From a virus: a DNA stretch of 22,429 bases. The notes beneath the pieces were generated by a model. It was not told the DNA's origin. It saw nothing but the letters and a program-made list of their open reading frames with translations, and did not search any database. The position numbers and the translations under genes were made by a program. Below, piece after piece: positions 2,534 to 22,429 of this stretch; the first letter of the stretch is position 1; every line of letters starts with the position of its first letter. The stretch is from the IMG/VR virus record IMGVR_UViG_3300044522_000204, positions 1-22,429 of that record. One strand, given 5' to 3'.

Positions 2534-2652
2534 TTTGTGTGTCCCTTCGTTTTTTGAACATTTGACGCTTTACAAGCACACATTGCGGCTGTAAAGACAT
2601 TTTCACGCACCGACTGGATTGTCCGACTGGTGCTAAAGCGAGAGGGCCTTCA
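2534..2652. promoter_or_regulatory. Divergent control region with a CTTTACA-N15-TGTAAAG dyad
   Basis: This 119-bp gap separates the leftward regulator gene from the rightward early genes. It contains a 7-bp inverted repeat, CTTTACA at 2568-2574 and TGTAAAG at 2590-2596. Because of its symmetry, each strand offers a weak promoter-like pair (TTTACA, 17-base spacer, TAAAGA or TAAAGC). An 8-bp direct repeat, CCGACTGG, lies at 2610-2617 and 2623-2630, 13 bases apart. The region most likely carries back-to-back promoters with operator sites for the neighbouring HTH protein. The promoter boxes match consensus poorly, so exact starts are inference. Confidence 0.55.
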
Positions 2653-3330
2653 ATGGCAATCAATCTAAAAAAGACGGGCGGACTATCCGCCAACGGCGTG
2701 AAGCTGCTCTGCTACGGGCAAGCTGGCGCTGGCAAGACGAGCCTGATCCGCACACTGCCAAACCCGGTGGTGCTGTCGGCAGAGGGTGGGCTACTGTCCA
2801 TCCAAGACGCCAACCTTCCTTACATCGAAATCGCCGACATGGACGATCTCATGGAGGCGTTCGCTTGGTGCAAGTCATCGACTGAAGCGGTTGGTTTCGA
2901 GAGCGTGGCGCTCGACTCCATCAGCGAAGTGGCTGAAGTTGTCCTCCAGCACGAACTGCGTAAGAACAAAGACGGACGCGCTGCATATGGCGAGTTAAAC
3001 ACCACCATGCAGGAGTTGATCCGCGCCTTCCGCGACCTTCCCGGCAAGCACGTTTATATGAGCGCCAAACTGGAAAAGTCGCAGGATGAGATGGGGAAAC
3101 TCCTCTACAATCCGGGGATGCCCGGCAAGTCACTGACGCAGGGCCTGCCATATTTCTTTGATGAGGTGCTGGCGCTTCGGGTCGAGCGTGACGCAGACGG
3201 CGCAACCCAGCGCGCCCTGATGTGTGACGGCGACGGCGCATGGCTCGCCAAAGATCGATCAGGCAAACTTGAGACTTGGGAAGCGCCCGATCTCGGTGCG
3301 ATCATTGCGAAGATTGGCGGTGCAGCATGA
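2653..3330 (+). CDS. Sak4-like AAA/RecA-fold ATPase (recombination mediator)
   Basis: The 225-residue protein has Walker A GQAGAGKT at 22-29 and a Walker B-like segment SVALDS at 84-89. It has the compact RecA core seen in phage Sak4/AAA_24 proteins, which promote single-strand annealing together with a phage ssDNA-binding protein. The C-terminal part carries the PGKSLTQGLPYFFDEVLAL segment common in this family. It opens the rightward early unit behind GAGAGGG, and its stop overlaps the next gene (ATGA). The DUF669-type protein, a Cas4-like exonuclease and an SF2 helicase follow, the usual company of Sak4. A short hairpin (GGCGGA-CTA-TCCGCC, 2677-2691) lies within the first codons. A replication-associated ATPase role is the alternative. 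Confidence 0.8.
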   Translation: MAINLKKTGGLSANGVKLLCYGQAGAGKTSLIRTLPNPVVLSAEGGLLSIQDANLPYIEIADMDDLMEAFAWCKSSTEAVGFESVALDSISEVAEVVLQHELRKNKDGRAAYGELNTTMQELIRAFRDLPGKHVYMSAKLEKSQDEMGKLLYNPGMPGKSLTQGLPYFFDEVLALRVERDADGATQRALMCDGDGAWLAKDRSGKLETWEAPDLGAIIAKIGGAA

Positions 3331-3659
3331 GCGCAGATAGCAAGATTAATAAGGTTACGCATCACCGTGGCAGGCTTTCAAGCAACGCTGATGCAGTATT
3401 GGCGCAGTTAAATGCCGGAAGCACATATGCGGCAATTGCTAAAAAGTTTGGTGTAGCTATTCCATCGGTTTATCACTTTGCAAAGCGCCGGGGCATTACA
3501 CGTAATCCAAAATACGTTGATATTAGTCAAGCAAGCGCGGCGATGCTCCATGAAATTGCTAGGCTTTCGAAGCTGATTTACGCAGCGCAGAGCGCACAAG
3601 TCAAAATCGACGCGCTCAAAACGGCATTGCTGGTCATTGCCAAAGAGGAAGAGGTATGA
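3327..3659 (+). CDS. Helix-turn-helix DNA-binding protein
   Basis: The 110-residue protein has a resolvase- or Hin-like helix-turn-helix around residues 22-55, including STYAAIAKKFGVAIPSVYHF, followed by a helical C-terminal half ending in an acidic tail. I chose the ATG at 3327, which overlaps the previous stop (ATGA). An in-frame upstream ATG at 3276 lies wholly inside the ATPase gene. The stop overlaps the next gene in the same way. The DNA is visibly richer in A and T than its neighbours, with codons such as aaa, att and tta, which hints at separate acquisition. No catalytic domain is attached, so it is probably a regulator or an accessory DNA-binding protein. Its targets are unknown. Confidence 0.7.
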   Translation: MSADSKINKVTHHRGRLSSNADAVLAQLNAGSTYAAIAKKFGVAIPSVYHFAKRRGITRNPKYVDISQASAAMLHEIARLSKLIYAAQSAQVKIDALKTALLVIAKEEEV

Positions 3660-3877
3660 GCGATACATATGGCCCGGCGTTTCCGACAACGCCAGAAAGC
3701 GCCGAACGTCTCGGTTGCACGTTTACGCACGAAGATGTTGGTCTTACAAAGCGCGATTGGTTCGCGGGACAGGCTTTGGTGGGGTTGATTGACCCCGCTT
3801 GGGTGACAGACATTGAACACGCGGCGGAATACGCCTATCGCGTTGCCGACGCTATGCTCATCGAGCGCGCAAAATGA
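3656..3877 (+). CDS. Conserved-type small phage protein, unknown function
   Basis: The 73-residue product has a Thr/Pro-rich N-terminus, a central GLTKRDWFAGQALVGL segment (about residues 29-44) and a C-terminal amphipathic helix, AAEYAYRVADAMLIERA. This arrangement (TKRxWFAGQAL followed by a YAYxxADAM helix) is familiar from small early proteins of many phages, but no function is known to me. It starts with ATG overlapping the previous stop and is followed by another ATGA overlap, so it sits in a tight translational chain with the recombination genes. GAGGAAGAGG upstream supplies the ribosome-binding site. No metal-binding or membrane features are seen. Confidence 0.7.
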   Translation: MSDTYGPAFPTTPESAERLGCTFTHEDVGLTKRDWFAGQALVGLIDPAWVTDIEHAAEYAYRVADAMLIERAK

Positions 3878-4254
3878 CCGTCTCAATCTATCAGCAATGG
3901 CTCAACGCCAAGGCCATCGAGACCGCTGCAATCAAGACCCGGCGTGATCTCGAGGACGCGATGGTTAAGAGCCTTGGCATTGCCGAGAATCTTGATGGCA
4001 CCGTCAACGTTGATGCGGACACTTACAAGGTCAAGATTGAAGGCCGCATTAACCGCAAAATCAACGCTGACAAGCTGCAAGAGTTGGCGGCTGAGAATGG
4101 CTTGACCGAGCATCTCGCAAGCCTGTTCCGGTGGAAGCCGGAAATCAATGCCGCCGCTTGGAAAGCAGCTAAGCCGGAAATCACTTCCCCACTGCTTGAC
4201 GCAATCACGGCCACACCGGGCCGTCCTTCTTTCACCATTACCAACAAGGATTAA
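3874..4254 (+). CDS. Hypothetical phage protein of the recombination cassette
   Basis: The 126-residue protein is soluble and mixed alpha/beta. A helical N-terminal half is followed by a beta-rich middle (TVNVDADTYKVKIEGRINRK, about 43-62). The C-terminal stretch WKPEINAAAWKAAKPEITSP precedes PGRPSFTI at the end. The last motif is familiar from conserved phage proteins encoded next to Sak4 and DUF669 genes. I cannot assign a biochemical role. Its ATG overlaps the preceding stop and it ends only 5 bases before the DUF669-type gene. Constant neighbourhood with an annealing ATPase and a putative ssDNA-binding protein suggests a helper in recombination or replication, which is inference from position. 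Confidence 0.7.
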   Translation: MTVSIYQQWLNAKAIETAAIKTRRDLEDAMVKSLGIAENLDGTVNVDADTYKVKIEGRINRKINADKLQELAAENGLTEHLASLFRWKPEINAAAWKAAKPEITSPLLDAITATPGRPSFTITNKD

Positions 4255-4259
4255 TTGAC

Positions 4260-4778
4260 ATGGCTTTTCTCGAAGAAACTTTCGTTGCCGACGATCTTCC
4301 CCAGTCTGACCGCAGCTACGATCTGCTACCCGAGGGCTGGTATGACGCCACGATCAGCAAGGCCGAAGTTGGCAACACCAAAGCTGGCACCGGCACCAAG
4401 ATCGATGTGCGCTATGACATCACCGGGCCGACCCAGCAGGGGCGGGTCATTTTCGCCAGCCTCAACATTCGCAACCCGAATCCCGAAGCCGAGCGCATTG
4501 GCCGCGAACAGCTTGGCGAATTGATGCGCGCTATCGGCTTGACCAAGGTGCAGGACTCCGACGAACTGATCGGCGGACAGGTCTGCATCAAGGTCAAGAT
4601 CAAGAAGGCATCCGCCAAAGACATCCCTGCTGGATACACGCAAGACCGCAACGAAGTCGGCGGCTGGAAGGCGATCAGCGGATCAATGGCCGCAATGCCG
4701 AAGGCTTCGATGCCGAAGGTCGCCGCAGCACCATCTGCACCAGCCAGCGCAAGCGCCAAGCCGCCTTGGGCTAAGTAA
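4260..4778 (+). CDS. DUF669-type ssDNA-binding candidate
   Basis: The 172-residue protein has the features of phage DUF669 proteins. LPEGWYDATISKAEV (about 23-37) opens a beta-rich core with TGTKIDVRYDITGP and ASLNIRNPNPEAERIGREQL. VCIKVKIKKA (about 108-117) follows, and a flexible Ala/Pro/Ser-rich tail ends in PPWAK. DUF669 proteins are widely suspected to act as ssDNA-binding partners of Sak4-type annealing ATPases. The order here supports that role. The start follows AAGGA about 9 bases upstream. A strong stem-loop lies immediately after the stop and may set the level of this protein relative to the downstream nuclease. Family call is fairly firm; biochemical activity is inferred. Confidence 0.8.
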   Translation: MAFLEETFVADDLPQSDRSYDLLPEGWYDATISKAEVGNTKAGTGTKIDVRYDITGPTQQGRVIFASLNIRNPNPEAERIGREQLGELMRAIGLTKVQDSDELIGGQVCIKVKIKKASAKDIPAGYTQDRNEVGGWKAISGSMAAMPKASMPKVAAAPSAPASASAKPPWAK

Positions 4779-4787
4779 GAGAGTTTT

Positions 4788-4820
4788 CCCCCCGGCCTAC
4801 TGGGGACTTAGGCCGGGGGG
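4788..4820 (+). other. Strong GC-rich intercistronic stem-loop
   Basis: CCCCCCGGCCTA (4788-4799) and TAGGCCGGGGGG (4809-4820) form a perfect 12-bp stem around a 9-base loop. It sits between the DUF669-type gene and the exonuclease gene. No T-run follows on the plus strand; the TTTT lies before the stem. It is therefore not a canonical terminator. A role in mRNA stability, processing or partial attenuation is more likely. Confidence 0.75.
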
Positions 4821-4851
4821 ATGCCTCAACCGCAGCAACGGGAGACTGAGC

Positions 4852-5859
4852 ATGAAACTGCCCGAGCCGATGAATACCATAACAAACCTAATTGACCAAT
4901 ACCACAAAGCGCAAAGCGAGCGACCGCGCCCGCACATGGGTTGCAGCGTCCTTGACCACCCTTGCGACCGCTGGTTGTGGCTGTCATTCCGCTGGGCCGT
5001 GGTGGAAAAGTTTGAAGGCCGCATCCTGCGCCTGTTCCGTCGCGGCCAGAACGAAGAGGAAATCATTGTGCGCGATCTGCGCAATGTCGGCATTGATGTG
5101 CGATCAAGCCAAGCGCGGGTGAACTTCGGTAGCCATGTTTCCGGTAGCCTCGACGGCATCATTGAAAGCGGTGTGCCAGAAGCGCCAAAGAAACGCCACG
5201 TTGCGGAGTTCAAGACGCACTCGAAGAAATCCTTTGACGATATGGTCAATCACGGAGTCGAGAAATCCAAGCCGATGCATTACGTCCAGATGCAAGTCTA
5301 TATGCACGGCACCGACATTGACCGCGCGCTTTATGTGGCGGTCTGCAAAGACGATGACCGGCTCCATATCGAGCGTGTGCGCTACGACGCTGACGTTGCT
5401 ACCAGAGCGGTTGCGCGCGGCCAGCGCATCGCACTAGCGGATCGTATGCCAGAGCCTCTCAGCGGCGATCCTAGCTGGTATCAGTGCCGTTTCTGCGCGG
5501 CGCATAGTTTTTGCCACAAAGCCGCGCCAACTAAACAGGCCAACTGCCGCACTTGCGCGCACAGCACGGCTCTGGCTGACTCTACATGGCGCTGCGAGCG
5601 GCACGACGCCGATAACATCCCGGTTGATTTCCAGCACACCGGTTGCGACGATCACATCATTCACCCCGATCTGGTGCCGTGGCCGATGATCCCGAGCGAT
5701 GATGGGCATTCTGTCATGTGGAAGATCGGCGACCGGGTGATTGAGAATGGAGCCAACGGCTACAAAAGCCGCGAGATACTGGCGAACCCGGACGTTTGCG
5801 GCACCGATGAGGTCGAGGCGATGAAGCGGGTATTTCCTGATGCGGAGGTGGTGGGCTGA
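4852..5859 (+). CDS. Cas4/RecB-like PD-(D/E)xK exonuclease with Cys cluster
   Basis: The 335-residue protein carries a RecB-family nuclease core: GSLDG with Asp101, EFK with Glu119 and Lys121, and a QxxxY motif at Gln146-Tyr150. Cys31 and Cys38 near the N-terminus and Cys212, Cys215 and Cys221 after the core resemble the Fe-S-supporting cysteines of Cas4/AddB nucleases. A further Cys232, Cys235, Cys248 and Cys265 set with a GCDDH end looks like a zinc ribbon. It presumably resects DNA ends to give ssDNA for the Sak4-type annealing ATPase. The ATG at 4852 follows GGGAGA by 7 bases. An in-frame ATG at 4870 is the alternative start. It overlaps the helicase gene by one base. Family level is secure; direction of resection is not visible. 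Confidence 0.82.
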   Translation: MKLPEPMNTITNLIDQYHKAQSERPRPHMGCSVLDHPCDRWLWLSFRWAVVEKFEGRILRLFRRGQNEEEIIVRDLRNVGIDVRSSQARVNFGSHVSGSLDGIIESGVPEAPKKRHVAEFKTHSKKSFDDMVNHGVEKSKPMHYVQMQVYMHGTDIDRALYVAVCKDDDRLHIERVRYDADVATRAVARGQRIALADRMPEPLSGDPSWYQCRFCAAHSFCHKAAPTKQANCRTCAHSTALADSTWRCERHDADNIPVDFQHTGCDDHIIHPDLVPWPMIPSDDGHSVMWKIGDRVIENGANGYKSREILANPDVCGTDEVEAMKRVFPDAEVVG

Positions 5860-7442
5860 TGCTTCGTGACTATCAGCAGCGCACCATCGACCAGCTTTAC
5901 GCTTGGTTCGCGGCAGGCAACGCTGGCAACCCGTGTCTGGTGTTGCCAACCGGCAGCGGCAAGAGTCACATCGTTGCGGCGCTCTGCAAAGACGCCATTC
6001 AAAGCTGGCCCGATACCCGCATATTGATGCTGACCCATGTTCGAGAGCTTATCAGCCAGAATGCCGCCAAGATGCGAGAGCATTGGCCCAACGCGCCGAT
6101 GGGGATTTATTCTGCCGGGTTAAATCGCAAGGTGTTGGGTGAGCCGATCACGTTTGCCGGAATCCAATCGGTGCGGACAAAGGCGCAACAGATCGGTCAT
6201 GTCGATCTCGTCATCATCGACGAATGCCACCTTGTCAGCCACAAAGATGAAGGCGGCTACCGGGTGCTGCTGGCCGATCTGCTCGCCATCAACCCGGCGC
6301 TGCGTGTGGTGGGCCTGACAGCCACGCCTTACAGGCTGGGGCATGGCCTAATCACCGACGCGCCTGCGCTGTTTCACGCCCTGATCGAACCGGTCTCAAT
6401 TGAGGAACTGATCTATAAGGGGCATCTCTCAACGCTCCGTAGCAAGCAGTGTCAAACATCATTTGACACTAGCGGCGTCCACAAACGCGGCGGCGAGTTC
6501 ATCGACAGCGAGTTGCAGGCGGCGGTTGATACCGAAGATAACAATCTAGCCGTTGTCTACGAAGTCATAGGGCGGGCTGGCGACCGCAAGGCATGGTTGT
6601 TCTTCTGCGCTGGCGTCCACCATGCCGAAGCAATCGCGGCGCTGCTAAACCGATATGGAATCGCGGCAGCTTGCGTAACTGGCGCAACACCGAAGGCCGA
6701 GCGCGACAGGATTTTGACGGACTTTAAGTGCGGGAAAATTAGGGCGTTGACCAACGCCAATGTCCTAACCACCGGCTTTGACTATCCCGACATCGACCTG
6801 ATTGCCATGCTGCGCCCGACCATGAGTCCAAGCCTGTATGTCCAGATGGCCGGGCGCGGGATGCGGGTCAAAAGCCACACCGACCATTGTTTAGTGCTGG
6901 ACTTCGCCGGGGTTGTGGCAACGCATGGCCCAATCACCGCCATAGAACCCAGAAAGCGCCGTGGCGAAGGTGATGGCGAAGCGCCGGTCAAGGTCTGCGA
7001 TGCCTGCAATGAATTGGTGCATATCAGCGCCAAGGTTTGCCCGACTTGCGGCGAAGCCTTCCCGGCACCTGAGCCGGTGGAGTTGACGCTGCACCACGAT
7101 GACATCATGGGCGTAGAGGCGGCAGAGATGACCGTGCAAAGCTGGCAATGGAGGCGACACACCAGCCGGGCCAGTGGCAAGGATATGCTGCTAGTGTCCT
7201 ATTATGGTGGCCTGAGTGACCCGGCGGTGTCCGAGTATTTCCCGGTTACGCACGATGGCTATGCTGGCCAGAAGGCGCTGGCGGCAGTGGCCGATATTGC
7301 ACAAAGTGGCGGAGTGGCGTTTAGTGGAGCCATCACGCTTGATGATTGGGCCGACCGGCTCAACGCTGGCGCGACACCCGCGACGATCAATTACCGCCGC
7401 GATGGGAAGTTTTACAGAGTGCTACGGAGGGGATGGGCATGA
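5859..7442 (+). CDS. SF2 DEAD/DEAH-type helicase with C-terminal zinc ribbon
   Basis: The 527-residue protein has the superfamily 2 motifs in order: PTGSGKS at 30-36 (motif I), DECH at 121-124 (II), TATP at 154-157 (III), and QMAGRGMR at 329-336 (VI), preceded by NVLTTGFDYPDID. A CxxC pair at 380/383 and another at 394/397 form a likely zinc ribbon after the helicase core. About 120 residues of unassigned C-terminal domain follow. It resembles phage-encoded Rad25/UvsW-like helicases, probably acting in branch migration, recombination or origin remodelling with the adjacent exonuclease. GGAGGTGG precedes the ATG, which overlaps the upstream stop by one base (TGATG). The next gene overlaps its stop (ATGA). 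Confidence 0.87.
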   Translation: MLRDYQQRTIDQLYAWFAAGNAGNPCLVLPTGSGKSHIVAALCKDAIQSWPDTRILMLTHVRELISQNAAKMREHWPNAPMGIYSAGLNRKVLGEPITFAGIQSVRTKAQQIGHVDLVIIDECHLVSHKDEGGYRVLLADLLAINPALRVVGLTATPYRLGHGLITDAPALFHALIEPVSIEELIYKGHLSTLRSKQCQTSFDTSGVHKRGGEFIDSELQAAVDTEDNNLAVVYEVIGRAGDRKAWLFFCAGVHHAEAIAALLNRYGIAAACVTGATPKAERDRILTDFKCGKIRALTNANVLTTGFDYPDIDLIAMLRPTMSPSLYVQMAGRGMRVKSHTDHCLVLDFAGVVATHGPITAIEPRKRRGEGDGEAPVKVCDACNELVHISAKVCPTCGEAFPAPEPVELTLHHDDIMGVEAAEMTVQSWQWRRHTSRASGKDMLLVSYYGGLSDPAVSEYFPVTHDGYAGQKALAAVADIAQSGGVAFSGAITLDDWADRLNAGATPATINYRRDGKFYRVLRRGWA

Positions 7443-7630
7443 GACCAGACAAGCCAGATTTTCTGATCGAATATGAAAAGTGGGTGCGCGCTGGGCCACC
7501 GCAATGCTGCCACACCTGCGACCACTTCGGAGGTCGTGGCGAGTGTTTCATATTCAACACACACCCGCCAGCCGAGTTCACCAACAGTCAGGGGGAGTGT
7601 GCGGCATGGTCATACGAAGTCCCATTCTGA
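7439..7630 (+). CDS. Small Cys-rich zinc-finger-like protein
   Basis: The 63-residue protein begins at the ATG overlapping the helicase stop, behind a strong GGAGGGG. An in-frame ATG at 7346 lies deep within the helicase gene and was rejected. Cys23-Cys24, Cys27, Cys36 and Cys54 are the likely metal ligands. The pattern CxTCxH, then a Cys, then PP-x-x-F and GEC resembles the second Cys cluster of the exonuclease encoded upstream (CRTCAH ... C ... P-x-x-F-Q ... GC). It may be a free-standing version of that zinc module. Function is unknown; a DNA- or protein-binding accessory is plausible. Its end overlaps the start of the VRR-NUC gene by 25 bases. Confidence 0.75.
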   Translation: MRPDKPDFLIEYEKWVRAGPPQCCHTCDHFGGRGECFIFNTHPPAEFTNSQGECAAWSYEVPF

Positions 7631-7974
7631 AGGCTGCGCTCCCGACAGAGCATGAAGAGCAGCGTGATCTGGTGCGCTGGTTCCGCCGCAAATATGGGCC
7701 GGTGCGTATCTTCGCCATCCCCAATGGCGGCTATCGCTCCATGACCACCGCAGGCAAGCTGAAGGCCGAAGGCGTTAGCGCGGGCATCCCCGATCTGTTC
7801 GTCCCAGCTTGGCGGCTATGGGTCGAAATGAAGCGACAGAAGGGCGGTCGCTTGTCGCCAGAGCAAGCCGACTGGATCGTGTATCTGGAGAGCGTCGGCT
7901 ACACCTGTCTCGTCTGCCCCGGCTCCGAAAATGCACAGGCCCAGATCGATGCATTCGTTGCTGCGCAGAAATAA
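7606..7974 (+). CDS. VRR-NUC family nuclease
   Basis: The 122-residue protein is a minimal VRR-NUC domain of the PD-(D/E)xK fold. HEEQRDLVRWF (about 16-26) forms the first helix. IPNGGYRS (38-45) and GIPDLF with Asp63 precede VEMKRQKGGRLSPEQADW, with Glu74 and Lys76 as catalytic residues. Such stand-alone phage proteins probably cleave branched or flap DNA structures. The ATG at 7606 follows GGGGAG at good spacing. An upstream in-frame ATG at 7480 would add 42 residues that read as an out-of-frame copy of the previous gene. Placement after the exonuclease and helicase suggests Holliday-junction or replication-fork processing, which is inference. Confidence 0.85.
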   Translation: MVIRSPILKAALPTEHEEQRDLVRWFRRKYGPVRIFAIPNGGYRSMTTAGKLKAEGVSAGIPDLFVPAWRLWVEMKRQKGGRLSPEQADWIVYLESVGYTCLVCPGSENAQAQIDAFVAAQK

Positions 7975-12533: not shown

Positions 12534-14648
12534 TTACGCCATAACACCAGAAACAAGATTGTTTCCACTGAGTCCAGTAGCCGTGATCTGTACACCGTTG
12601 ATGGTCAACTTGTTTCCGCTTCCCCCTGAGATTGCAGCCGGGTCCATGCCAGAGCAATTAATCTCCGTGAAAGTATTTCCGGTGCTGGCAAGCTGCACAC
12701 CAAGAGGATAGACACCCGCGCTGCCATAGCCGACCGGCGCAATGATATTTCTGGAACAAGTGCTAAACATACGGACAATGGCACCGCTCATGGTGGTGCT
12801 GTAGTTTTTGACTATAGGCTTGAGTACGCAGTTGTTTGCGTTTGTTGCGTCAACGCCGGAAATCTTCGCTTCCATGATGATCGTGCCGTCGATAGTAACG
12901 CCGTTGCTTGCGTCAATGCTGACGCCAGACGATGTTACAGCGCCGACCATAATTGCCTGCCCGCCATTTACGCGAATTTGCCCTTTGCAATTATCGACCG
13001 CAATCGCAGCCCGAGCGCCTGCTGCGGCCCCATGATAGCCGCCGATAATCTCAACCGAACCAAACTTGTTGCAGTTTTGCAGAAAAATACCCGCGTAGGA
13101 AAATGCGTCCATGACAGGATTCTTGATTTGCAAATCGCCATTCGTGAACGCAAACGGCCCCGTAAGGCCGTCACCGACAACCTGAATACCAATCCGGCAA
13201 GCGGTGGCCTCTGGGCTTTCAAGGAAGGCATCGGTAAATCCGTCATCTAAGTAAAAGCCGACGCTATCAGCCGGTGGCGCTCCGCCGACAGTGCCGTTGC
13301 AATAATTTAGATAGAGCGAAGCGTTGCCGCTGTTTAGGCCGGGGATAGACGCCGAGCCATTGACGTAGAAGCCATAGAAGCGATCAGTTCCGCCGCCAGC
13401 GCCAGCGATAGTCCGGAATGCCCAGCAGCGGTAAGCCTGAGTCTGAACGGTCCCATAAAACTGAAAGCCGAAAATGCTTTCTGCACACATCACGTTTTCA
13501 AAAAGCGCATACAGCGTGTATTGATTTTTGATGCCGCTAACAGCCGCCGTGATATTCGGCGCAGTTGAGCGCCCCACATATACGTTGTTGACCTTGTTGC
13601 CCTGAAACAGCGCGTTGATGCTGCCGGGGAACGTATCAGGCCCAACTTGGATAACGTCGGCAGATGCGTTCGTTTGCAAGATGCGTGTGACAAAATTAGA
13701 GATAGCGCCATCAAATCGTTCGGCTACGCCAGACAATTCGCGCCACGGCAGGCCCATATAAATGCGGGAGTTGATCCAGTAATCACCAGCCACAAGCTGC
13801 ACCTTGAGCAGTGCGATCAGAGCCGCATTGATGGCGGTTACGTTGCCCGCCGCCGCGCCGGGGGTGTTGGGTATAGCGCCCCACCATTCCGAGAAACCTT
13901 CGGAGGTCTTATTCCAATTGAACGTGACGCTTGCGCCCGCCCCAATCTGGAATACTTGCTGCGGCCCTGCGATCATCTGGTTGTTGAAGGCGATCACAAC
14001 ACCAGTGCCGAGGATCAATATAGCGCCAAAATCAAACGAAACCGCTGACGCGAACGTGATGGAGCCATTGATGATATAATTGCCCGAAGGAACACGCAAC
14101 GTGCCGCCACGGGCATCAGCAGCGATAAACGCGGCGGTGTCATTGGTGACGCCATTAGCGACCGCGCCAAAATCCTGCGGCGTAACCGTCTGGCGCATTT
14201 TGTCCTGCGCCGAAATGGCAACCGCGCTTGCGCCAGTTTGAAGGAAGCCGATCCAGTCAGAACCGTCGTTGTCCGCGAGATCGGAGACCTTCCCGACTTG
14301 CCCCTTGAAGCCGGTGAAGTCGATGTTCGAAGCCGAAGCCCCGGCATCGATGCCAGTGCCATCAGGGAAGCTATAAACCAGCAGATTCTTTTCGTCGTTG
14401 ACGAGGATCGAAAAGTTCAGCGCATCAACGTAAACCTGCGCCGGAGTGCCGTTGCGATAGATGTAGCCATTGCTCGTTATAAGCGGCTGCGATGCCGTGA
14501 TCGTCAGCGCCTCGTCGTAATAGACTTGCAGCGGGTTGGTCACAGGGTCGAGATTGGCGACACCGATATAGATGTTGCCATTGTCGAGCGGAGTGCCATC
14601 ACGATCATAAAAGACCGGGTACGGGACTTGAACGGAAAGTGCGGCCAT
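12534..14648 (-). CDS. Tailspike with P22-like head-binding domain and beta-helix
   Basis: The 704-residue protein begins with a domain (about 1-110) like the P22 tailspike head-binding domain: DGTPLDNGNIYIG, DPVTNPLQVYYDE, ITASQPLITSNGYI and AQVYVDA occur in that order. A linker leads to TPQDFGAVANGVTNDTAAF (about 156-174), the usual start of a pectate-lyase-type right-handed beta-helix. The beta-helix continues with Gly/Asn-rich repeats to the C-terminus. It should form the trimeric receptor-binding spike and may cleave surface polysaccharide; no catalytic residues can be assigned. The C-terminal part probably determines host range. The gene ends 15 bases before the holin-like gene and starts with a TAATG overlap. 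Confidence 0.85.
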   Translation of the reverse strand: MAALSVQVPYPVFYDRDGTPLDNGNIYIGVANLDPVTNPLQVYYDEALTITASQPLITSNGYIYRNGTPAQVYVDALNFSILVNDEKNLLVYSFPDGTGIDAGASASNIDFTGFKGQVGKVSDLADNDGSDWIGFLQTGASAVAISAQDKMRQTVTPQDFGAVANGVTNDTAAFIAADARGGTLRVPSGNYIINGSITFASAVSFDFGAILILGTGVVIAFNNQMIAGPQQVFQIGAGASVTFNWNKTSEGFSEWWGAIPNTPGAAAGNVTAINAALIALLKVQLVAGDYWINSRIYMGLPWRELSGVAERFDGAISNFVTRILQTNASADVIQVGPDTFPGSINALFQGNKVNNVYVGRSTAPNITAAVSGIKNQYTLYALFENVMCAESIFGFQFYGTVQTQAYRCWAFRTIAGAGGGTDRFYGFYVNGSASIPGLNSGNASLYLNYCNGTVGGAPPADSVGFYLDDGFTDAFLESPEATACRIGIQVVGDGLTGPFAFTNGDLQIKNPVMDAFSYAGIFLQNCNKFGSVEIIGGYHGAAAGARAAIAVDNCKGQIRVNGGQAIMVGAVTSSGVSIDASNGVTIDGTIIMEAKISGVDATNANNCVLKPIVKNYSTTMSGAIVRMFSTCSRNIIAPVGYGSAGVYPLGVQLASTGNTFTEINCSGMDPAAISGGSGNKLTINGVQITATGLSGNNLVSGVMA

Positions 14649-16738
14649 TATTCAGTTTCCTCTGAGGGTGGCTGTGTCTCTGACTGGGCAACGGCACTCA
14701 TGCGCTTGGCGATCTCCACCAAGCGTTCACGGTTATTAGTCTTGCCAGCCTTTAGCAACAAGTTGCGCATTGCCGCGCTTTCGTAAATGCGAGCGATTGC
14801 CCCGATGCCACCGGCAGTTGCCATAGCGCCTAGGAATCCTTCAAAGCCTCCACCAAATGCGCCGACGCCACCGACAGTGGCAGTAGGAATGAACGTCTGA
14901 GCGCCAGTTACAGGGAATGCGCCAGCTTCACCGGCCCGTCTGGTAGCATTCAAGACGCGCGACAAACCTTGCACTCGGGCCAGTTCGTCACCGCTAAAGA
15001 AAATGCCAACTTGCTTGGCAAGCGTTTGAATTTCGTTTGCAAACCGTGTCGGTGATACGGCATCTTCGCCTGTGCTTGTTGCCTTTGTTGCTGCGCGGGC
15101 AATGATGGCTTGGCGAGCGACGGCCCGTCCCTGCGGCGACAGATTGCGATACAAAGCCGCAACGTCACTAGGCTTGCTGCTGAATAGGAGGCTCTCCACC
15201 GCTTCCGGCGTAGCCTCTCCAGTTTTCAATACGCGCGAAAGCGACTGCTTTTGCAACTCACCTGCTTCTTCGGAAAGCCGCTTATTCGAGACCATCCATT
15301 TATCAAAGTCCCGGCGTTCGCCATTCCGGCGAATGAAAGCGCCCATGTCTTTGCGCACAGGATCGTAAATTGCTCGCAAAGCTTTTGCTCCAGCCTCACG
15401 CGCTGGCGCTGAAATTTGATTAGCTGGGTCGTTTTTAAAGACACTGGATAGCACATCTTTGCGATATGACTCCAATTCAAACAAGTTTCGGCCCTGAATG
15501 TCAGTCCTAATCTGTTCGAGAGCGTCAGCGGCTTCATCGCCTGCTGACGTTTTACGACGCCGTAGTGCTGCAATTTCGGTGCCAATGCGATCAATTGTGG
15601 ATTGCACAGGCACATTGCCAGAGCCAGCCAGTCGATTGATGACTTCATTCTTGTTGTCGGAATACTGCCGAATAGTGGCAGACCGCCTCTGCGCCAAATC
15701 CGCAACGATCTGCTCTGGAAGCGCATTGCCATCTGCCGCGCCATAATCAGTTACAATGTCCCGCACTGCGTTGATGCGGGCCTGCTGCTGCGCCTCTCGC
15801 ACCGGGCCGGTACCAGCCAGCGGGATTCGCTCGCCAGTTGCTTGCGCTGTGCGACCGGCAAAGGTGCGTGGCGGCAGAACATCGCTGGTCATTAGCGGGA
15901 CGCCAACAGCTTCGGCCTCTTGTACAATCGCTGGCAATGGCACTCTTGGACGCGGCACAGCAGCCCCGCCAGCAACACTACCAACCAAACCAGCCGCGAG
16001 CTGTGCCGCAGGCCCGCCACCAGCCTCTGCGGTTAGCTGAGATACCGCACCACCCGTTGCGGCTCCGGCAAGCTGTGCGCCCGGTCTAGCGGCCAGTATC
16101 TCGCCAATGCCGGTGACAGCCGTTCGCGCGGCACCGGGAGCCTGCGCCATTAGGCCGCGACCCAGCCCGATCATACCAGCGCCGCCACCAACTGCACCAG
16201 CCGTTGTCTGCAATACACGCTCTGCGGCTGTCTTGGCTTCTGGTACGCCAATGCTGGTTAGCAGATTCTCCATCGCCGCTGTCGGCTCGGTGAAGTTTGT
16301 GCCGAATAGCGCGTTGATGCCCATCACAATCGGGTCAACGACAGCAGGAAAAGCCGCGCCAGCCAAAGCGCCGGGAGGCCCGCCCATAGCGCCCCCTAGA
16401 GCGGCAAAAGCGGCAGTTGGCGCAAGGCCACGCGCCAAAGCGCCGCCGACGCCTTCAACGCTTGTTTCAGGCTCTGGCGTACTGATTCCGCCGCCAAACT
16501 CAGCAGCAAGCGCAGCGTAATCAGATGGCGGGATATTGACGGTGCTGACTGGCTCCATGGCAGCGCCCGGAACACCACGCGGTATATTGGATTCTTCAGT
16601 GGGCTGCGTCGATCTCGGTGGCCCAATATTGACGCGCATAACGGGACGCCCTTCAGCATCCATCGTCATGCCGCCAGCCGCATCGGTTTCTATATTGCCG
16701 CCAAACTCACGGGCCAAGGCTTCATAGTCTACGGCCAT
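14648..16738 (-). CDS. Large DNA-ejection / internal virion protein candidate
   Basis: The 696-residue protein has a disordered N-terminal region with a repeated motif (DYEALAREFGGNIET at 4-18 and DYAALAAEFGGGIST at 73-87). Gly/Ala-rich hydrophobic segments follow (about 100-140 and 185-260). A long charged, helical middle (about 300-590) and another Gly/Ala-rich hydrophobic stretch near 625-660 complete it. This layout fits proteins stored in the podovirus head and ejected to form a DNA channel, in the position of P22 gp16. No lytic transglycosylase motif was seen. It is linked to neighbours on both sides by TAATG overlaps. Assignment rests mainly on order and composition. Confidence 0.6.
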   Translation of the reverse strand: MAVDYEALAREFGGNIETDAAGGMTMDAEGRPVMRVNIGPPRSTQPTEESNIPRGVPGAAMEPVSTVNIPPSDYAALAAEFGGGISTPEPETSVEGVGGALARGLAPTAAFAALGGAMGGPPGALAGAAFPAVVDPIVMGINALFGTNFTEPTAAMENLLTSIGVPEAKTAAERVLQTTAGAVGGGAGMIGLGRGLMAQAPGAARTAVTGIGEILAARPGAQLAGAATGGAVSQLTAEAGGGPAAQLAAGLVGSVAGGAAVPRPRVPLPAIVQEAEAVGVPLMTSDVLPPRTFAGRTAQATGERIPLAGTGPVREAQQQARINAVRDIVTDYGAADGNALPEQIVADLAQRRSATIRQYSDNKNEVINRLAGSGNVPVQSTIDRIGTEIAALRRRKTSAGDEAADALEQIRTDIQGRNLFELESYRKDVLSSVFKNDPANQISAPAREAGAKALRAIYDPVRKDMGAFIRRNGERRDFDKWMVSNKRLSEEAGELQKQSLSRVLKTGEATPEAVESLLFSSKPSDVAALYRNLSPQGRAVARQAIIARAATKATSTGEDAVSPTRFANEIQTLAKQVGIFFSGDELARVQGLSRVLNATRRAGEAGAFPVTGAQTFIPTATVGGVGAFGGGFEGFLGAMATAGGIGAIARIYESAAMRNLLLKAGKTNNRERLVEIAKRMSAVAQSETQPPSEETE

Positions 16739-17541
16739 TATTGAATCCCAACTCTGCGCTTGAACGCATCCGCAGATTGCTTATTTGGGAAGGTGGCAAC
16801 CCTCCCATCTGGCAATGGAACCGTTATATTTTGCGATGGCGGGGCAACCGGCTGTTCTAATACGGGGCCAGCGATGGCATTGATTTCACGCTCATTGTAG
16901 CCACCAGCGCGCAAACGATTCACACGCCGCTGAGTTGCCTTCTCAATAATCTCCAAACGCCTGTTAAGGTTTTTCTGGACTTCACTAGGTTTCATTCCCG
17001 GCGTAACTGTAGTGGCGTTGTAAGCTGATTTTTCGCCAGCCGTAAGTGACGCGCCAAACAACTTGTTTCGAATAACGTTGTCGCTTGCACGGAAATCTGC
17101 CCACCAATCACGCTGTCCCGGCGTCCCAACGCCGAATGCTCCTTGGGCAATATTTTCAACATCTCCAGCTATATTACCAGCGAAGTTCTCTTGAAATGAG
17201 TTGACCGCTCGCTTGAGAGCATCAAGTTGATCCACATCTTCAGTCAGTTTATCGGCATCACCTTGGCGCAATGCCGTTCCAGCCGCCGCTGGGCCACCGG
17301 GAATTGGCTCAAGACCGCCGCCCGGCGTCCGCCTATAGCCAGACGGAACGCCTCCTCCTTGAAACGTAGATTCCGCTCGTGTGTCCGCACGCTCTGCTCG
17401 TATGTCCCCACGGCGCGCAAGATCAAGACGCTCTGCTTCAGCCGCTGATGTTGGAGCGGGCTGTACGCCGATAATAGGCTTCAGTTGCATCGCCGGTATA
17501 GGCTTGGCGATTCCGTCAAAACGATCAAATGGATTAGCCAT
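16738..17541 (-). CDS. Putative ejection/internal virion protein
   Basis: The 267-residue protein begins MANPFDRFD, an opening familiar from podovirus internal proteins. It continues through a basic Pro/Gly-rich segment to a helical core (about 95-215). The C-terminus, NITVPLPDGRVATFPNKQSA with a final basic helix (AFKRRVGIQ), resembles a short domain found at the ends of several phage virion proteins. Overlapping TAATG junctions tie it to the larger ejection candidate downstream and another upstream. It is probably packaged in the head and released with DNA. No enzymatic motif is visible. Confidence 0.55.
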   Translation of the reverse strand: MANPFDRFDGIAKPIPAMQLKPIIGVQPAPTSAAEAERLDLARRGDIRAERADTRAESTFQGGGVPSGYRRTPGGGLEPIPGGPAAAGTALRQGDADKLTEDVDQLDALKRAVNSFQENFAGNIAGDVENIAQGAFGVGTPGQRDWWADFRASDNVIRNKLFGASLTAGEKSAYNATTVTPGMKPSEVQKNLNRRLEIIEKATQRRVNRLRAGGYNEREINAIAGPVLEQPVAPPSQNITVPLPDGRVATFPNKQSADAFKRRVGIQ

Positions 17542-18332
17542 TACTGTGCTTCCAAAACGCGCGCTGCCGCACCAGAACCATACTTTGAATCAAATGCACT
17601 GCGCAACTTAGGATTTGTTTTTAGCAAATCCACGGCTTCTTGCGGGATTGATGGGGATATTTCTGCGTCTTGCGATGCGGCCATCACGGTTTTTTTCGCA
17701 AAAACACCAACGCCGGGAACGATGATAAAATCATCTCCTTCCCGTTTAGTTCTAAGCGCCTTTTGGAACTCAGGAGTGCCCGGTTTTAAACCTTCTGCAA
17801 TTAGCTCTTTGAGAAACGGAGTTTGGTCAGCAACAGTCGAAAGTTTGCTCCACAACTCCGGATTCGTCGCAGCAAGTGTCGCGCCAATCGAGATCATCCC
17901 AGCGTTAGGATTCTGTTCATACACGCGCAAGTTTGCCTCGCCCTGTGCGGCTTCTTGTGTTCGACCAGAATTGCGCGCCGCATCAATGAACGTCTGCATC
18001 TGCGCCTTGACGGCCTCAGTTTCGCCACTACGCATCAGCATATAAAGCTGCGTCCGCTGGCGCTCGTCAGCCTCACGCTGCGGAGCTGTCCGCATGGTGT
18101 AAGCCTGCTTGGCCCGTTCTGCGATGGACGGATTCTTGAGAATCAAGTCGCTGATCTGCGTTGTCGTTGGCGTCCCACCTTCAAACGCCGTCAGCAGCGC
18201 AGCCTCACCCTCACGGGCGCGCTGTTCAACTTCCCGTGCCTTGCGCTGTTCTTCAAGAACAGTGCTGATTTGCAATCCCTGAGCGAAGCCCGCCAGCGGG
18301 GAAACCACGTTATAGTTATAAGGCTCTGCCAT
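17541..18332 (-). CDS. Putative ejection protein, helical
   Basis: The 263-residue protein is mostly helical and charged. It opens with MAEPYNYNVVSPLAGFAQGL, then EEQRKAREVEQRAREGEAAL, as in P22 gp20/gp7-like internal proteins. Ala/Gln-rich helices cover the first 170 residues. A short beta segment (DDFIIVPGVGVFAKKTV) follows, and the end is QEAVDLLKTNPKLRSAFDSK, a pattern seen at the termini of phage ejection proteins. AGG lies upstream of the ATG. It overlaps the following gene (TAATG). Function is inferred from order among late genes. Confidence 0.58.
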   Translation of the reverse strand: MAEPYNYNVVSPLAGFAQGLQISTVLEEQRKAREVEQRAREGEAALLTAFEGGTPTTTQISDLILKNPSIAERAKQAYTMRTAPQREADERQRTQLYMLMRSGETEAVKAQMQTFIDAARNSGRTQEAAQGEANLRVYEQNPNAGMISIGATLAATNPELWSKLSTVADQTPFLKELIAEGLKPGTPEFQKALRTKREGDDFIIVPGVGVFAKKTVMAASQDAEISPSIPQEAVDLLKTNPKLRSAFDSKYGSGAAARVLEAQ

Positions 18333-18358: not shown

Positions 18359-19096
18359 TTAGAAGCCGGGAATCGGAACCGGCGCTACGTTAGGCTGGAA
18401 ATTATAAACTGGTGTGGTCTGCGCATTCTGGAAGGTGCCGGAAAGACCGACATTGCCAGCACCGCCAAAGCCGCCGAGTATTCTTTGACCAGTGGGGCCT
18501 GTGGCAAATCCGCTGACTTGATTAAGCGCAGTGTTGAAGGCGTTTGCCGATCCAAGGATTCCGCCAGCCTGCGCTCGTCCAGATTCCTCAAGCAATCCAG
18601 CAATGTTTCCGGCGCTGGTAACACCGGCAGCGCCGACGCCAGCCGCAGACCGCTGGCCCAATGATGTCATCTCGCCAAGACGCCCATATTGCTGTTCCAG
18701 AAACTGGTTGAGCAGCGATGGCCGAAACTGCGCAAGCGCACCCTGAACATTGCCGCCACGAAGCCCGCCGGTTGCCGACGCCTTCTGCAAAAGCGCCTCT
18801 TCGCCTTGCCGCGCGATTGCCTGAAATAGCGGGCTTTGCTCCTGCCCAGCAACGTAAGCCTGCTGGGCTTCTGGCCCGGCAAGACCGAGCGCCGCCATCT
18901 GTTGCGCCAATGCAGGCGTCCCAGCCGCACGATAAGGCTCTAGCAGCCTTTCAAGATTCTCACGCGCCGCGCGCTGTTCTGCGGCCCCCAACTCAGCAGA
19001 TTTAACTTGTGCCGCCGCCGCGCTTTTTGATGCGCTGGCAGACGAAATGCCACCGATTACAGCACTACCTACAACTGCCGCTGCCATTGCCGACAT
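18359..19096 (-). CDS. DNA transfer/ejection protein (P22 gp7-like position)
   Basis: I chose the ATG at 19096, which overlaps the upstream stop (TGATG); a TTG one codon earlier is in frame. The 245-residue product starts with a hydrophobic Ala/Gly/Ser-rich segment (AAAVVGSAVIGGISSASAS). A charged helix (ELGAAEQRAARENLERLLEP) leads to Gln/Ala/Gly-rich sequence (SPLFQAIARQGEEALLQKAS, ATGGLRGGN). This pattern is widely annotated as a DNA transfer protein in podoviruses and prophages. It is likely an ejected protein that enters the host envelope. Its start is coupled to the cupin-SET gene. Confidence 0.68.
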   Translation of the reverse strand: MSAMAAAVVGSAVIGGISSASASKSAAAAQVKSAELGAAEQRAARENLERLLEPYRAAGTPALAQQMAALGLAGPEAQQAYVAGQEQSPLFQAIARQGEEALLQKASATGGLRGGNVQGALAQFRPSLLNQFLEQQYGRLGEMTSLGQRSAAGVGAAGVTSAGNIAGLLEESGRAQAGGILGSANAFNTALNQVSGFATGPTGQRILGGFGGAGNVGLSGTFQNAQTTPVYNFQPNVAPVPIPGF

Positions 19097-19968
19097 CAAC
19101 GCTCTCCTAGTGACAGGCGCAAGACCTGCCTATAATCTAATGTGATTTCTTCGCCAAGTGCCGAGCCGGTAGAACCGGCGATGTCGCGGATGGCGAACAG
19201 ATACACATCATCGTTCGCGGCCTTCACGGCGATTGCGTTAGGCTCTTTGGCATGGTTGACATAGCGCCCGGCTGGCGTCCGCTTGCCGTCAAGCCTCGCC
19301 GGAGCGATGGCCTCCAATGCAGCGATGTTGCCAGACGCGAACATTCCCTTTCCGGCGATTGGCGAAGGTGCCGTGACCACCTTGTATTCGCCAAGCGGGA
19401 ATGGAATCAAATCGGCGGTGTTTTCGGAGATGCTTTGCACGGTCTCGGCGTCAAAGCCGAATGTTGCAATGGCGTCGTGGAAGTCCGCGATGTCCTCATC
19501 ATTGCGGTGCGTCAGAAACTTCTGGCCAGCCTGCCACTCCTCGCTCTTTTCAAACAAGACGGCTTCCAGCTTTTCCACGTTCATCTCGTTCGTGGCGTAG
19601 ATGTTCTGCCACACCATGTCCTCGATCACATACGCCAGCTTGCGCCCCGGCTCGGCTATGAAAGTGAACGGTGCGCTAATTTCTAACGTCTCGCCGGATT
19701 CCTTGAACAGCATCACCTTGCCAGACACCAGCACATTCATATGCGGGTCAAGATGCTTATGCCCGATCAGATACGACCCGGCCTTAGCCGCCATCTCACG
19801 GATATAGATGCCGGGGCCGAAGCGGTGCGTGACCGGGCAATCGGCCTGCTGGTGCCGCAGAAACTCACCCTCAAGCCGCTGTATATCGCTTTCGCAAAAC
19901 TTATCGCCCAGCACGATCATCTGATCGTCTGGCGCTTCATCATATACCAAGGCGGTTTCGAGTGTCAT
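19096..19968 (-). CDS. Cupin-SET domain fusion (putative protein methyltransferase)
   Basis: The 290-residue protein joins two folds. Residues about 50-125 read as a cupin: Gly64-x5-His70-x-His72-x3-His76-x6-Gly83 follows cupin motif 1 with His in place of the usual Glu. Motif 2 is degenerate around EPGRK (106-110). Residues about 194-285 read as a SET domain: GKG (206-208), NH ... PN (Asn238, His239, Pro243, Asn244) and GEEITLDY (272-279) with the catalytic-type Tyr279. SET enzymes transfer methyl groups from S-adenosylmethionine to lysine. No pre- or post-SET Cys cluster is present. The gene sits in the virion module and overlaps the ejection gene by TGATG. The target may be a virion or host protein; inactivity is also possible. 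Confidence 0.78.
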   Translation of the reverse strand: MTLETALVYDEAPDDQMIVLGDKFCESDIQRLEGEFLRHQQADCPVTHRFGPGIYIREMAAKAGSYLIGHKHLDPHMNVLVSGKVMLFKESGETLEISAPFTFIAEPGRKLAYVIEDMVWQNIYATNEMNVEKLEAVLFEKSEEWQAGQKFLTHRNDEDIADFHDAIATFGFDAETVQSISENTADLIPFPLGEYKVVTAPSPIAGKGMFASGNIAALEAIAPARLDGKRTPAGRYVNHAKEPNAIAVKAANDDVYLFAIRDIAGSTGSALGEEITLDYRQVLRLSLGER

Positions 19969-19985
19969 TCTGCCCTTTCAGACTG

Positions 19986-20027: not shown

Positions 20028-20432
20028 CTAATCTTCGGAGCTTTCAAACTCCCGCTCTTCCTGCGCCTGACATGACCGCAGATCGTGACAGATGAAGTCG
20101 AACTTGTTGCAATAGCCACGGAAGCCAGCGTTCTCGTCCCATTGGTTGCGCGGGATTCGCTCCATCTTGGCCTGCGTCAACGTGCTGTTGTCATAGTATT
20201 CGCAGTTGGAGCAACGACGCCGCCGGGCTTCCGCCTCATCGACTTGCATTGCAACGCCCAGCGCCTTCCAGTATGGCCCATTCGCGCCCGGTTCGTTGCT
20301 GGGCTTTTCTGGGCCGAGCATCCAATCCTTGATGACGATCTGAGTGTTCTTCTTGTTCTCAGACGCGGTGATGAATGGCTCGCTTTCCTGCAAACCATTG
20401 AAGCCACCAAACACGATAACAGGCTTTTTCAC
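20028..20432 (-). CDS. Cys-rich late protein, probable metal-binding
   Basis: The 134-residue protein starts at a GTG that overlaps the previous stop (GTGA); no ATG is nearby. Residues 49-70 (GANGPYWKALGVAMQVDEAE) precede a Cys cluster: Cys74, Cys77, Cys108, Cys115 and Cys121. The setting, CSNCEYY ... GYCNKFDFICHDLRSC, suggests one bound zinc or Fe-S centre. The end is acidic. It lies between a small virion protein and the cupin-SET gene, so it is likely a virion or assembly protein. I recognise the pattern as recurring in phages but know no function. Confidence 0.65.
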   Translation of the reverse strand: MKKPVIVFGGFNGLQESEPFITASENKKNTQIVIKDWMLGPEKPSNEPGANGPYWKALGVAMQVDEAEARRRRCSNCEYYDNSTLTQAKMERIPRNQWDENAGFRGYCNKFDFICHDLRSCQAQEEREFESSED

Positions 20433-20767
20433 GTTACAATCTCCCGACCCGATGCGCGGATGGTAAGCGAGGTTGCCGCGCTGGCAATAGTTGAAATGAT
20501 CCCGCCGGGGTCAAGCACTTGCCCGACCAATTCCGGGAACGTGTAGGTTTCATTCGGCGCGATGGCCCGCGTGTCAACGATTAGATTGCTCGCCCCAGCA
20601 GTCCCGCCGGACGCAATCAAGTTGACGCTAATCGTGACATTGCCAGCCGCCGTATTGGTGGCCGTGAACTTGTCGATGATCGTGCGGCAATTGACCGCCG
20701 TATACTGTCCGGTCTGCACGGCTTCGGCCTGCTTTGCGGGAATAAGCGTTTTTACGGTTACGGCCAT
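20429..20767 (-). CDS. Small beta-rich virion protein
   Basis: The 112-residue product begins MAVTVKTLIPAKQAEAVQTG and continues with beta strands rich in Thr, Val and Ala (TATNTAAGNVTISVNLIASG, APNETYTFPEL). The C-terminus (SLTIRASGREIV) suggests an Ig-like or jelly-roll sandwich. Similar short proteins occur among tail and head decoration genes of many phages. AGGAC precedes the ATG. It follows the fibre gene after 8 bases and overlaps the Cys-rich gene. A structural role is inferred from composition and order. Confidence 0.6.
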   Translation of the reverse strand: MAVTVKTLIPAKQAEAVQTGQYTAVNCRTIIDKFTATNTAAGNVTISVNLIASGGTAGASNLIVDTRAIAPNETYTFPELVGQVLDPGGIISTIASAATSLTIRASGREIVT

Positions 20768-20775
20768 GATACGTC

Positions 20776-21999
20776 CTACTGCTCCGTCTGCGTAACAGCC
20801 AATATCACAGCCGGGGCCGCAGGCGCAAATGCCGTCGCGGCAACGGTTGCGATGCTGACGTTAGTGCTATTCGCCGCGTACATGACTTCGATAAAGTCGC
20901 CTGCCAGCAGCGATACTACTTCGTTGAGTGATACTACCAGATAGCCGTTGTTGAGCGTGATCGACGCGACCCGCGCGGAGTTGGGAATGTCAGCGGTATT
21001 GTTCTTGCGTAGCCAGACCCAGATAGATTTTTGGGATGAATTGGTGGAAGTGATCTGCACCGACACCGAAATGTTGTAGAGACCGGCGTTGGCGATAACA
21101 ACGCGGGACGCAGGCGTACCCAAAGAAACGTCGTTGGCAATCTCGGTGTTGGTAAAAACCAACGCATACGCCGTGTTAGCCGCTGCGGGTGTCTGCGTGT
21201 CTAGCTTGGTGAACTCGCCGTAGTAAATCTGCTGTTCAATCGTCGGGCGCACAAAGATGATGCCGTCGGTCGTGCCGACCTGCAATACCGCCGCCACTGG
21301 AACGACGTTGTTCGGTGCCGTTGGCTTTACGTTAGTGAATGCGCCAGCAACTGTCGGGGAGGCGTAGAGAACGTCACCGAGAGCAAACGCGCTGGTGTTT
21401 ACATCGCGCACAAAGCCGAATGTGGTGCAGTATCCCCTCTCCCCGCTATCGGGCAAATCGTGCGTCATGACGCCAACGACATACAGCGTGTTTGTTGCGC
21501 CGTTGGCGAGGTAGGGCGAGACTGACAAGGCACTGTCGGGAACCGCGCCGGTAAAGCCTACAACCGTGCCGTTTGGAATCGTCACTCCGGTAAAGTTTGC
21601 AACCCTAGCGTATTGCTCCAAACCCACTTGCTGAACGACGCCATACTCCATGCCGATGTCAAGGGTCTGGTCTGATGGATTCCAAGCGGCTCTGGCTATC
21701 GAGGACGTATGCGGAGCGTTAAGGTTGAAATCAATATAATCAGTGCTAATTGAGTTGTTGTTCTGCGTTGCCGGTTGAGATGCCGCCACATCCAAAACAT
21801 CCGTTATCACCGCAATACTGGCCAGCGCCTCATTGGCCGTTGCGAAGGCGCTTCCCGCTGAAACACTGATCTCATCAAGCGTTACCGTGTTGATGATGTC
21901 AACGGTCGCAAACAGCTTTTCAAACTGCTTGATCTGCTCGAAGTCTTGCAGGAAAGACGCAAGCTGGTCGCGCGTCAGATTGAGACGCTGAACGGCCAT
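20776..21999 (-). CDS. Needle-position tail fibre with C1q-like C-terminal domain
   Basis: The 407-residue protein has a helical N-terminus (VQRLNLTRDQLASFLQDFEQ, then IKQFEKLFATVD) familiar from podovirus tail proteins. A beta-rich middle follows (about 95-265). The C-terminal domain (about 275-395) carries GLYNISVSVQ, IWVWLRKNN and GDFIEVMYAAN, the strand pattern of C1q/TNF-like jelly rolls in trimeric fibres. It directly follows the gp10-like gene, the position of the tail needle gene in P22. It may close the tail or touch the host surface. The start overlaps the gp10-like stop (TAATG). Confidence 0.65.
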   Translation of the reverse strand: MAVQRLNLTRDQLASFLQDFEQIKQFEKLFATVDIINTVTLDEISVSAGSAFATANEALASIAVITDVLDVAASQPATQNNNSISTDYIDFNLNAPHTSSIARAAWNPSDQTLDIGMEYGVVQQVGLEQYARVANFTGVTIPNGTVVGFTGAVPDSALSVSPYLANGATNTLYVVGVMTHDLPDSGERGYCTTFGFVRDVNTSAFALGDVLYASPTVAGAFTNVKPTAPNNVVPVAAVLQVGTTDGIIFVRPTIEQQIYYGEFTKLDTQTPAAANTAYALVFTNTEIANDVSLGTPASRVVIANAGLYNISVSVQITSTNSSQKSIWVWLRKNNTADIPNSARVASITLNNGYLVVSLNEVVSLLAGDFIEVMYAANSTNVSIATVAATAFAPAAPAVILAVTQTEQ

Positions 22000-22429
22000 T
22001 AGAAGGCCAGCGGCTCGATAGCCGCCTCTAGCCTAGCAAACGACATATGAGCCTGCGAGGTGCCTTGAAACCGCTGCATGCGCCAGTTACGCATCCATCC
22101 CTGCTGGAACCACACAAGGCGCTTTGCCCGGTCTCCCGTGGTGCCGATATTGATGATCTTCTGCTGGCTCCATGTCTGGCCGTCAGTTGAATACGATGTG
22201 TTGATCGTCGGGTTGGTGCCGAATGCAACCGATCCTGTCAGGCTGACAAGTTCAAGCTGCTGCACGATTGCGCCACGGCCTTCGTTATAGATGATCGTAG
22301 TGCCAAACTCCCAGCGCACGTTAGCGCCCCAGTGCGTCGATACATCGATGTCAAAATAGCCGATTGCCGACGACTCTGGATCGCCAACGAGCCACTTGTT
22401 ATAGCACCACACAAAACTTTGCGCCCGAT
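21999..22429 (-). CDS. P22 gp10-like packaged-DNA stabilisation protein (partial, C-terminal part)
   Basis: The frame is open to the right edge of the window, so only about 143 C-terminal residues are seen. The GTG codon at 22412 is internal, within a segment reading AKFCVWCYNKWLVGD. DPESSAIGYFDIDVSTHWGA, VRWEFGTTIIYNEG and QQLELVSLTGSV follow. They match the repeated beta-propeller-like pattern of P22 gp10-type tail accessory factors, which plug the portal after packaging. The end FQQGWMRNWRMQRFQGTSQA also fits. Downstream order (needle-like, then ejection genes) supports the call. Confidence 0.75.
   Translation of the reverse strand, partial: RAQSFVWCYNKWLVGDPESSAIGYFDIDVSTHWGANVRWEFGTTIIYNEGRGAIVQQLELVSLTGSVAFGTNPTINTSYSTDGQTWSQQKIINIGTTGDRAKRLVWFQQGWMRNWRMQRFQGTSQAHMSFARLEAAIEPLAF

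Follow-up and report, generated by a model that had tools for sequence, protein, structure and literature searches.

The DNA analysed here (the window) is a viral stretch of 22,429 nucleotides, in which a run of minus-strand genes resembling the head-completion and ejection genes of podoviruses encloses a gene that joins a cupin to a SET domain. In the order of transcription, the genes concerned are:

21999–22412, minus strand: P22 gp10-like head-completion protein, C-terminal part (phrog_578, 9.1e-19)
20776–21999, minus strand: 407-aa protein in the position of P22 gp26 (needle), for which the name 'needle' is unproven; no confident family match
20429–20767, minus strand: 112-aa protein; weak match, to phrog_20100 only
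20028–20432, minus strand: 134-aa Cys-rich upstream neighbour (CSNC...YCNKFDFICHDLRSC); no Pfam or PHROGs match
19096–19968, minus strand: cupin-SET fusion gene, 290 aa (ORF calls, Pfam, PHROGs and AlphaFold2)
18359–19096, minus strand: gp7-like ejection protein with a hydrophobic N-terminus, its start overlapping the cupin-SET stop (PF25688, 1.7e-6; phrog_598, 1.2e-29)
17541–18332, minus strand: 263-aa protein in the position of P22 gp20, placed by position; no Pfam or PHROGs match
14648–16738, minus strand: gp16/DNA-transfer-like ejection protein of the same module (phrog_770, 3.9e-60)

An early module occupies 207–7974, with Toprim+AAA (207–2228, minus strand), an AAA_24 ATPase (2653–3330), a DEAD/ResIII helicase (5859–7442) and a VRR-NUC nuclease (7480–7974). 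The 112-aa protein is kept upstream in many other cupin-SET loci and in Vibrio phage VvAW1.

The fusion gene runs from an ATG at 19968, preceded by a Shine-Dalgarno-like AAAGGG at 19978–19973, to a TGA at 19098–19096; this stop overlaps the ATG of the gp7-like gene as TGATG (19098–19094), with AGGAG at 19108–19104 upstream of the second start. An earlier note on this DNA had given the fusion these coordinates and had described its coupling to an ejection gene, and both statements hold, with the strand being minus. The note further set the gene between tail/needle and ejection genes: the virion module and the gp7-like successor stand, while the needle lacks a confirming family match. Pfam assigns the C-terminal part to SET (PF00856; 27.1 bits against a gathering score of 22.4, E 5.8e-6), and phrog_34170 matches the protein essentially full-length (5.9e-73, residues 28–284). 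The N-terminal half matches two 'tail' families of PHROGs, phrog_12032 (1.3e-29) and phrog_24280 (4.8e-21), both consisting of SET-less cupin relatives; a search of NCBIfam with the protein gave no match. The parts of the gene, all on the minus strand, are:

19588–19848, minus strand: cupin (double-stranded beta-helix), residues ~41–127, a homologue of the phage 'short tail fibre' cupins that lack SET (phrog_12032, phrog_24280; VIA)
19741–19761, minus strand: cupin motif 1, His70/His72/His76, of which only 70 and 76 are conserved
19402–19542, minus strand: helical linker, residues ~143–189 (AlphaFold2 model; stand-alone SET relatives)
19126–19401, minus strand: minimal SET domain, residues ~190–281, with the SET-I insert nearly absent (PF00856; VIA)
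19345–19353, minus strand: GxG cofactor motif, G206-K-G208 (conserved in 63/63)
19237–19257, minus strand: NHxxxPN cofactor motif, N238-H-(3)-P243-N244 (conservation in 63 relatives)
19132–19149, minus strand: catalytic Tyr motif, E274-x-T-x-D-Y279 (E274 and Y279 in 63/63)

The SET half is the better defined of the two. Its conservation was assessed in 63 aligned sequences, taken from the window and fetched contigs and sharing 23–81% identity with the window protein; G206, G208, R235, N238, N244, E274 and Y279 are present in every one, H239 in 62 and P243 in 60. The three signatures named in the earlier note (GKG, NH...PN and GEEITLDY, the last ending in Y279) are thus all found, and Tyr279 and Asn238, the residues on whose conservation the note had staked its proposal, are invariant. 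All three motifs occur in strict form in 100 of the 119 proteins of 240–330 aa at these loci, a set that includes one SET-less cupin; nearly all exceptions retain N238-H and Y279 and alter P243 alone, and one ends at a contig edge. AlphaFold2, run full-length on the 63 aligned relatives, gave a model with pLDDT 89.9 and pTM 0.85, with pLDDT mostly above 90 over residues 200–280. In VIA comparisons the segment ~190–281 superimposes on the SAH complex of the MLL1 SET domain, with Z 10.9, 35% identity and 1.8 A over 80 residues. The SET part also matches vSET of an algal virus (Z 9.7); the predicted fold is that of SETs holding SAM or SAH, as the note had required of it. The helical linker belongs to the SET module, because stand-alone SET relatives have it too. 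A Gly-rich loop before GEE occurs in main-clade relatives and is absent from the clade of Pseudoalteromonas phage PH1 and from the stand-alone SETs. Comparison with an 81%-identical relative yielded dN/dS of 0.086 for SET and 0.091 for the cupin, which points to strong purifying selection. Overall, the C-terminal half appears to be an intact minimal SAM-dependent SET lysine methyltransferase, its activity being predicted from motifs and model.

The cupin assignment is likewise supported by structure comparison: the best Foldseek matches of the N-terminal part are cupins, and VIA gives Z of ~9 over 83–103 aa to HP0902, PpnP and DddK. The three histidines at motif 1, taken earlier for metal ligands, are indeed present in the window protein, but the trio is not a family trait. 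His70 and His76 are each kept in 59/63, whereas position 72 carries Gln in 43 and His in 16 of the 63, and the motif-2 His position is occupied by Ala or Gly in the relatives. Metal-binding cupins are recognised by conserved His/Glu ligands in motifs 1 and 2, and the family departs from this pattern. We therefore rejected a three-His metal site, and the idea of a metal or oxygen sensor finds no support for the family, because residue 72 is mostly Gln and the motif-2 His is missing.

The distribution of the fusion is broad and its position strikingly constant. Two scans of viral contigs returned 540 and 424 matching stretches, in overlapping sets, and the cupin-SET family was matched in over 500 viral contigs; named phages with the fusion are Rhodoferax phage P26218, Pseudoalteromonas phage PH1 and phage zth2-2, and it occurs in Manatee Spring genomes as well. 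The next gene is gp7-like in 104 of the 117 distinct cupin-SETs having downstream sequence, and in 9 of 11 cupin-only loci, with a spacing mostly between -28 and +2 nt; the gene upstream varies between loci. The gp7 sequences are too divergent for a pattern-based survey of this slot in viral contigs. SET-less cupins hold the same slot in phages of Vibrio, Thalassomonas, Dickeya and Acinetobacter and in Zobellviridae and Krylovirinae; P22-like and T7-like (Krylovirinae) phages are both among them. The methyltransferase had been singled out as an unusual item in a phage structural module; it is better regarded as no oddity, because a large family occupies a fixed slot. Equally, the slot does not require methylation, given how many phages place a SET-less cupin there.

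Events joining and separating the two domains appear to have been several. On the cupin tree, which derives from a short alignment, the distribution of SET requires two changes or more, a minimum dictated by branches with good support, so that SET was either joined twice or lost in between. In Paraburkholderia ferrariae (L112:6210–7657) cupin and SET are two genes overlapping by 4 nt; this pair lies directly before an apparent terminase small-subunit gene. A Comamonadaceae prophage (L109) has SET without cupin, after replication genes, and the gene of an MS-hydrophobic protein follows two genes past it.

Nearly all of the proteins encoded after the cupin or cupin-SET start alike. A hydrophobic N-terminus, defined as a stretch with KD of at least 1.0 in the first 45 residues, characterises 98% of the 124 partners and 18% of the 1101 remaining genes at these loci, and Ser stands at position 2 in 105 of the 124 vs 11% of controls, a signal that owes much to shared gp7 ancestry. 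The hydrophobic N-terminus is also seen in partners missed by the gp7 profile, including those from phages of other architecture: the ~110-aa proteins of BPP-1-like phages, BPP-1 Bbp22, and a 1124-aa protein (L137:7831–11205) which follows a cupin-SET, has an MS-hydrophobic start like podoviral ejection proteins and is encoded near a 1776-aa tape-measure-like protein, probably in a long-tailed phage employing the same pair.

Taken together, these observations are best reconciled, with a probability that we place a little short of even, with a virion-morphogenesis factor, the cupin, to which a SET lysine methyltransferase was added that would act, while the virion is being assembled, on some protein of the ejection apparatus. 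The cupin half would be the ancestral occupant of the slot just before the first ejection protein, where, judged solely from synteny, it would most likely serve as an assembly or handling factor for a membrane-active ejection protein with a hydrophobic N-terminus; the SET half would methylate one or more lysines of an ejection-apparatus protein as the particle is built. This suggests that phages with cupin-SET mark proteins chemically in the course of constructing their DNA-injection machinery.

Other readings were weighed against this one. The strongest, though in our judgement unlikely, is that the enzyme targets host proteins, whether in the infected cell at a late stage or following carriage in the virion and ejection. 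Rac of phiKMV-like phages provides a precedent: this GNAT, whose gene lies at the border of the structural cluster, acts on the RNA polymerase of the host (PMC7552054). The SET-only relative in the Comamonadaceae prophage, placed after replication genes, could be read likewise, though an MS-hydrophobic gene is again close by. Against this, synteny with one virion gene is maintained across the loci of over 100 distinct proteins, and a fixed slot before ejection genes fits a role in assembly better.

We consider it more improbable still that SET is a binding or structural add-on devoid of methyltransferase activity. The domain is admittedly reduced: GxG and NH are only ~30 residues apart and a single short C-terminal helix follows the core, so that little of SET-I or post-SET is left, which is also the case in other minimal SETs. 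These two elements normally form the peptide groove, although they are not obligatory across the SET superfamily. The aromatic residue found in MLL1 two positions before the catalytic Tyr is moreover Leu, Ile or Val here. An inactive domain is nonetheless difficult to square with the invariance of GxG, N238 and Y279 and with the purifying selection described above, and vSET is minimal in the same way.

A further proposal, that SET methylates the adjacent gp7-like protein, the most probable site being the small-residue/Lys region near its N-terminus (such as ASKSA in the window), draws on translational coupling, on near-fixed synteny and on the SASKSAAAA that follows the hydrophobic stretch of the window partner; we nevertheless give it little credence. 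Two partners, in L094 and L128, contain no lysine at all despite intact SET motifs, and 13 of 115 are lysine-free in their first 60 residues. No lysine is invariant or SET-specific in a comparison of 66 gp7-like sequences from SET loci with 10 others, and the partners generally contain little lysine (median fraction 0.021, against 0.039 for other genes of the same loci; 100 of 114 loci). The earlier note had put forward an ejection protein as a substrate; the neighbouring one was accordingly rejected as the universal acceptor, and because gp7 does not fill that role, one of the larger ejection proteins or a different virion protein becomes the more likely target. A second substrate put forward there, the Cys-rich neighbour, was also rejected as a general one, for it adjoins cupin-SET only in the subgroup of the window (28 loci). 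Similarly improbable is a cupin-SET that is itself a virion component (a short tail fibre or adhesin) with SET as decoration: the names of phrog_12032 and phrog_24280, the RefSeq names of cupin relatives and a Shewanella phage X14 relative labelled 'putative structural protein' speak for it, but these names look like transferred annotations, we found no virion proteomics, and ejection genes follow this slot, which in the genomes of P22 and T7 holds gp14 (GNAT-like in its model) and gp13 instead of a fibre.

The preferred reading, of an assembly cupin with an added lysine methyltransferase, bears on a modification already recorded. A recent mass-spectrometry study reported methylated lysines on virion proteins of phages for which no methyltransferase is known (PMC13288928). 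A large phage family encoding its own SET beside an ejection gene allows a direct approach to the questions of whether phages methylate their virions and for what reason. A wider and distinctly more doubtful extension is that a portable pair, a cupin followed by a protein whose N-terminus is small-residue plus hydrophobic, recurs across podoviral, BPP-1-like and long-tailed phages; the cupin would often carry its own methyltransferase, and an acetyltransferase-like protein would stand close by or replace it. If this is true, modifying virion proteins covalently would belong to the general course of making the DNA-injection apparatus.

From the perspective of known systems, SET and cupin domains are both familiar, and some database entries already bear SET-type names, one cupin-SET relative being annotated 'pbcV-1 histone H3-lys 27 methyltransferase structure'. 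No description of a phage cupin-SET fusion or of phage-encoded SET methyltransferases was found in the literature searched, outside which most subscription papers lay, and a paper on the phiGT1 podovirus core module makes no mention of methylation or a cupin. The closest counterparts are the members of phrog_34170, a family without assigned function that includes the protein of phage PH1; like the protein of Rhodoferax phage P26218, which has the same architecture, they are full-length cupin-SETs in the same slot. The SET half of P26218 scores below the Pfam cut-off, and its record calls the protein hypothetical or tail-fibre-like. With PBCV-1 vSET and MLL1-type SETs the window protein shares the fold, GxG, NHxxxPN and the catalytic Tyr motif; it differs in the near loss of SET-I, the family-specific Gly-rich loop before GEE, the fusion to a cupin and its setting in a bacteriophage virion operon, with no histone substrate. 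Cyanophages P-RSM6 and P-SSM7 have a stand-alone minimal SET (~99 aa), lacking a cupin, next to virion genes; in the cyanomyovirus P-RSM6 (L263:5058–5357) the 99-aa SET directly precedes baseplate wedge genes of gp25/gp6 type, and this baseplate location is unlike the cupin-SET slot. The cupins of phrog_12032 and phrog_24280 ('short tail fibre protein' of BA3, VvAW1 and BPP-1, the last being Bbp23) are homologous to the N-terminal domain and also precede a protein with a hydrophobic N-terminus, but without SET. In BPP-1 a Pfam-confirmed GNAT adjoins the cupin, and in BPP-1 and two BPP-1-like contigs taken together a GNAT lies beside or near it. Finally, P22 gp14 (DUF2824) and T7 gp13 (Phage_T7_Gp13), for which we found no experimental role in the literature searched, are unrelated in sequence to cupin-SET and occupy the same slot, directly before P22 gp7 and T7 gp14, respectively. 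The best matches to a model of P22 gp14, all 50 of those listed, are GNAT-type with Z up to 9.5; the model itself (pLDDT 62, reached in one of five models) allows a GNAT fold to be proposed with low-to-moderate confidence, and for T7 gp13 the acetyltransferase match is at chance level only (E 0.39). For this little-understood slot a common explanation can now be offered, namely that its occupant is a protein which would prepare the membrane-active ejection protein encoded next to it.
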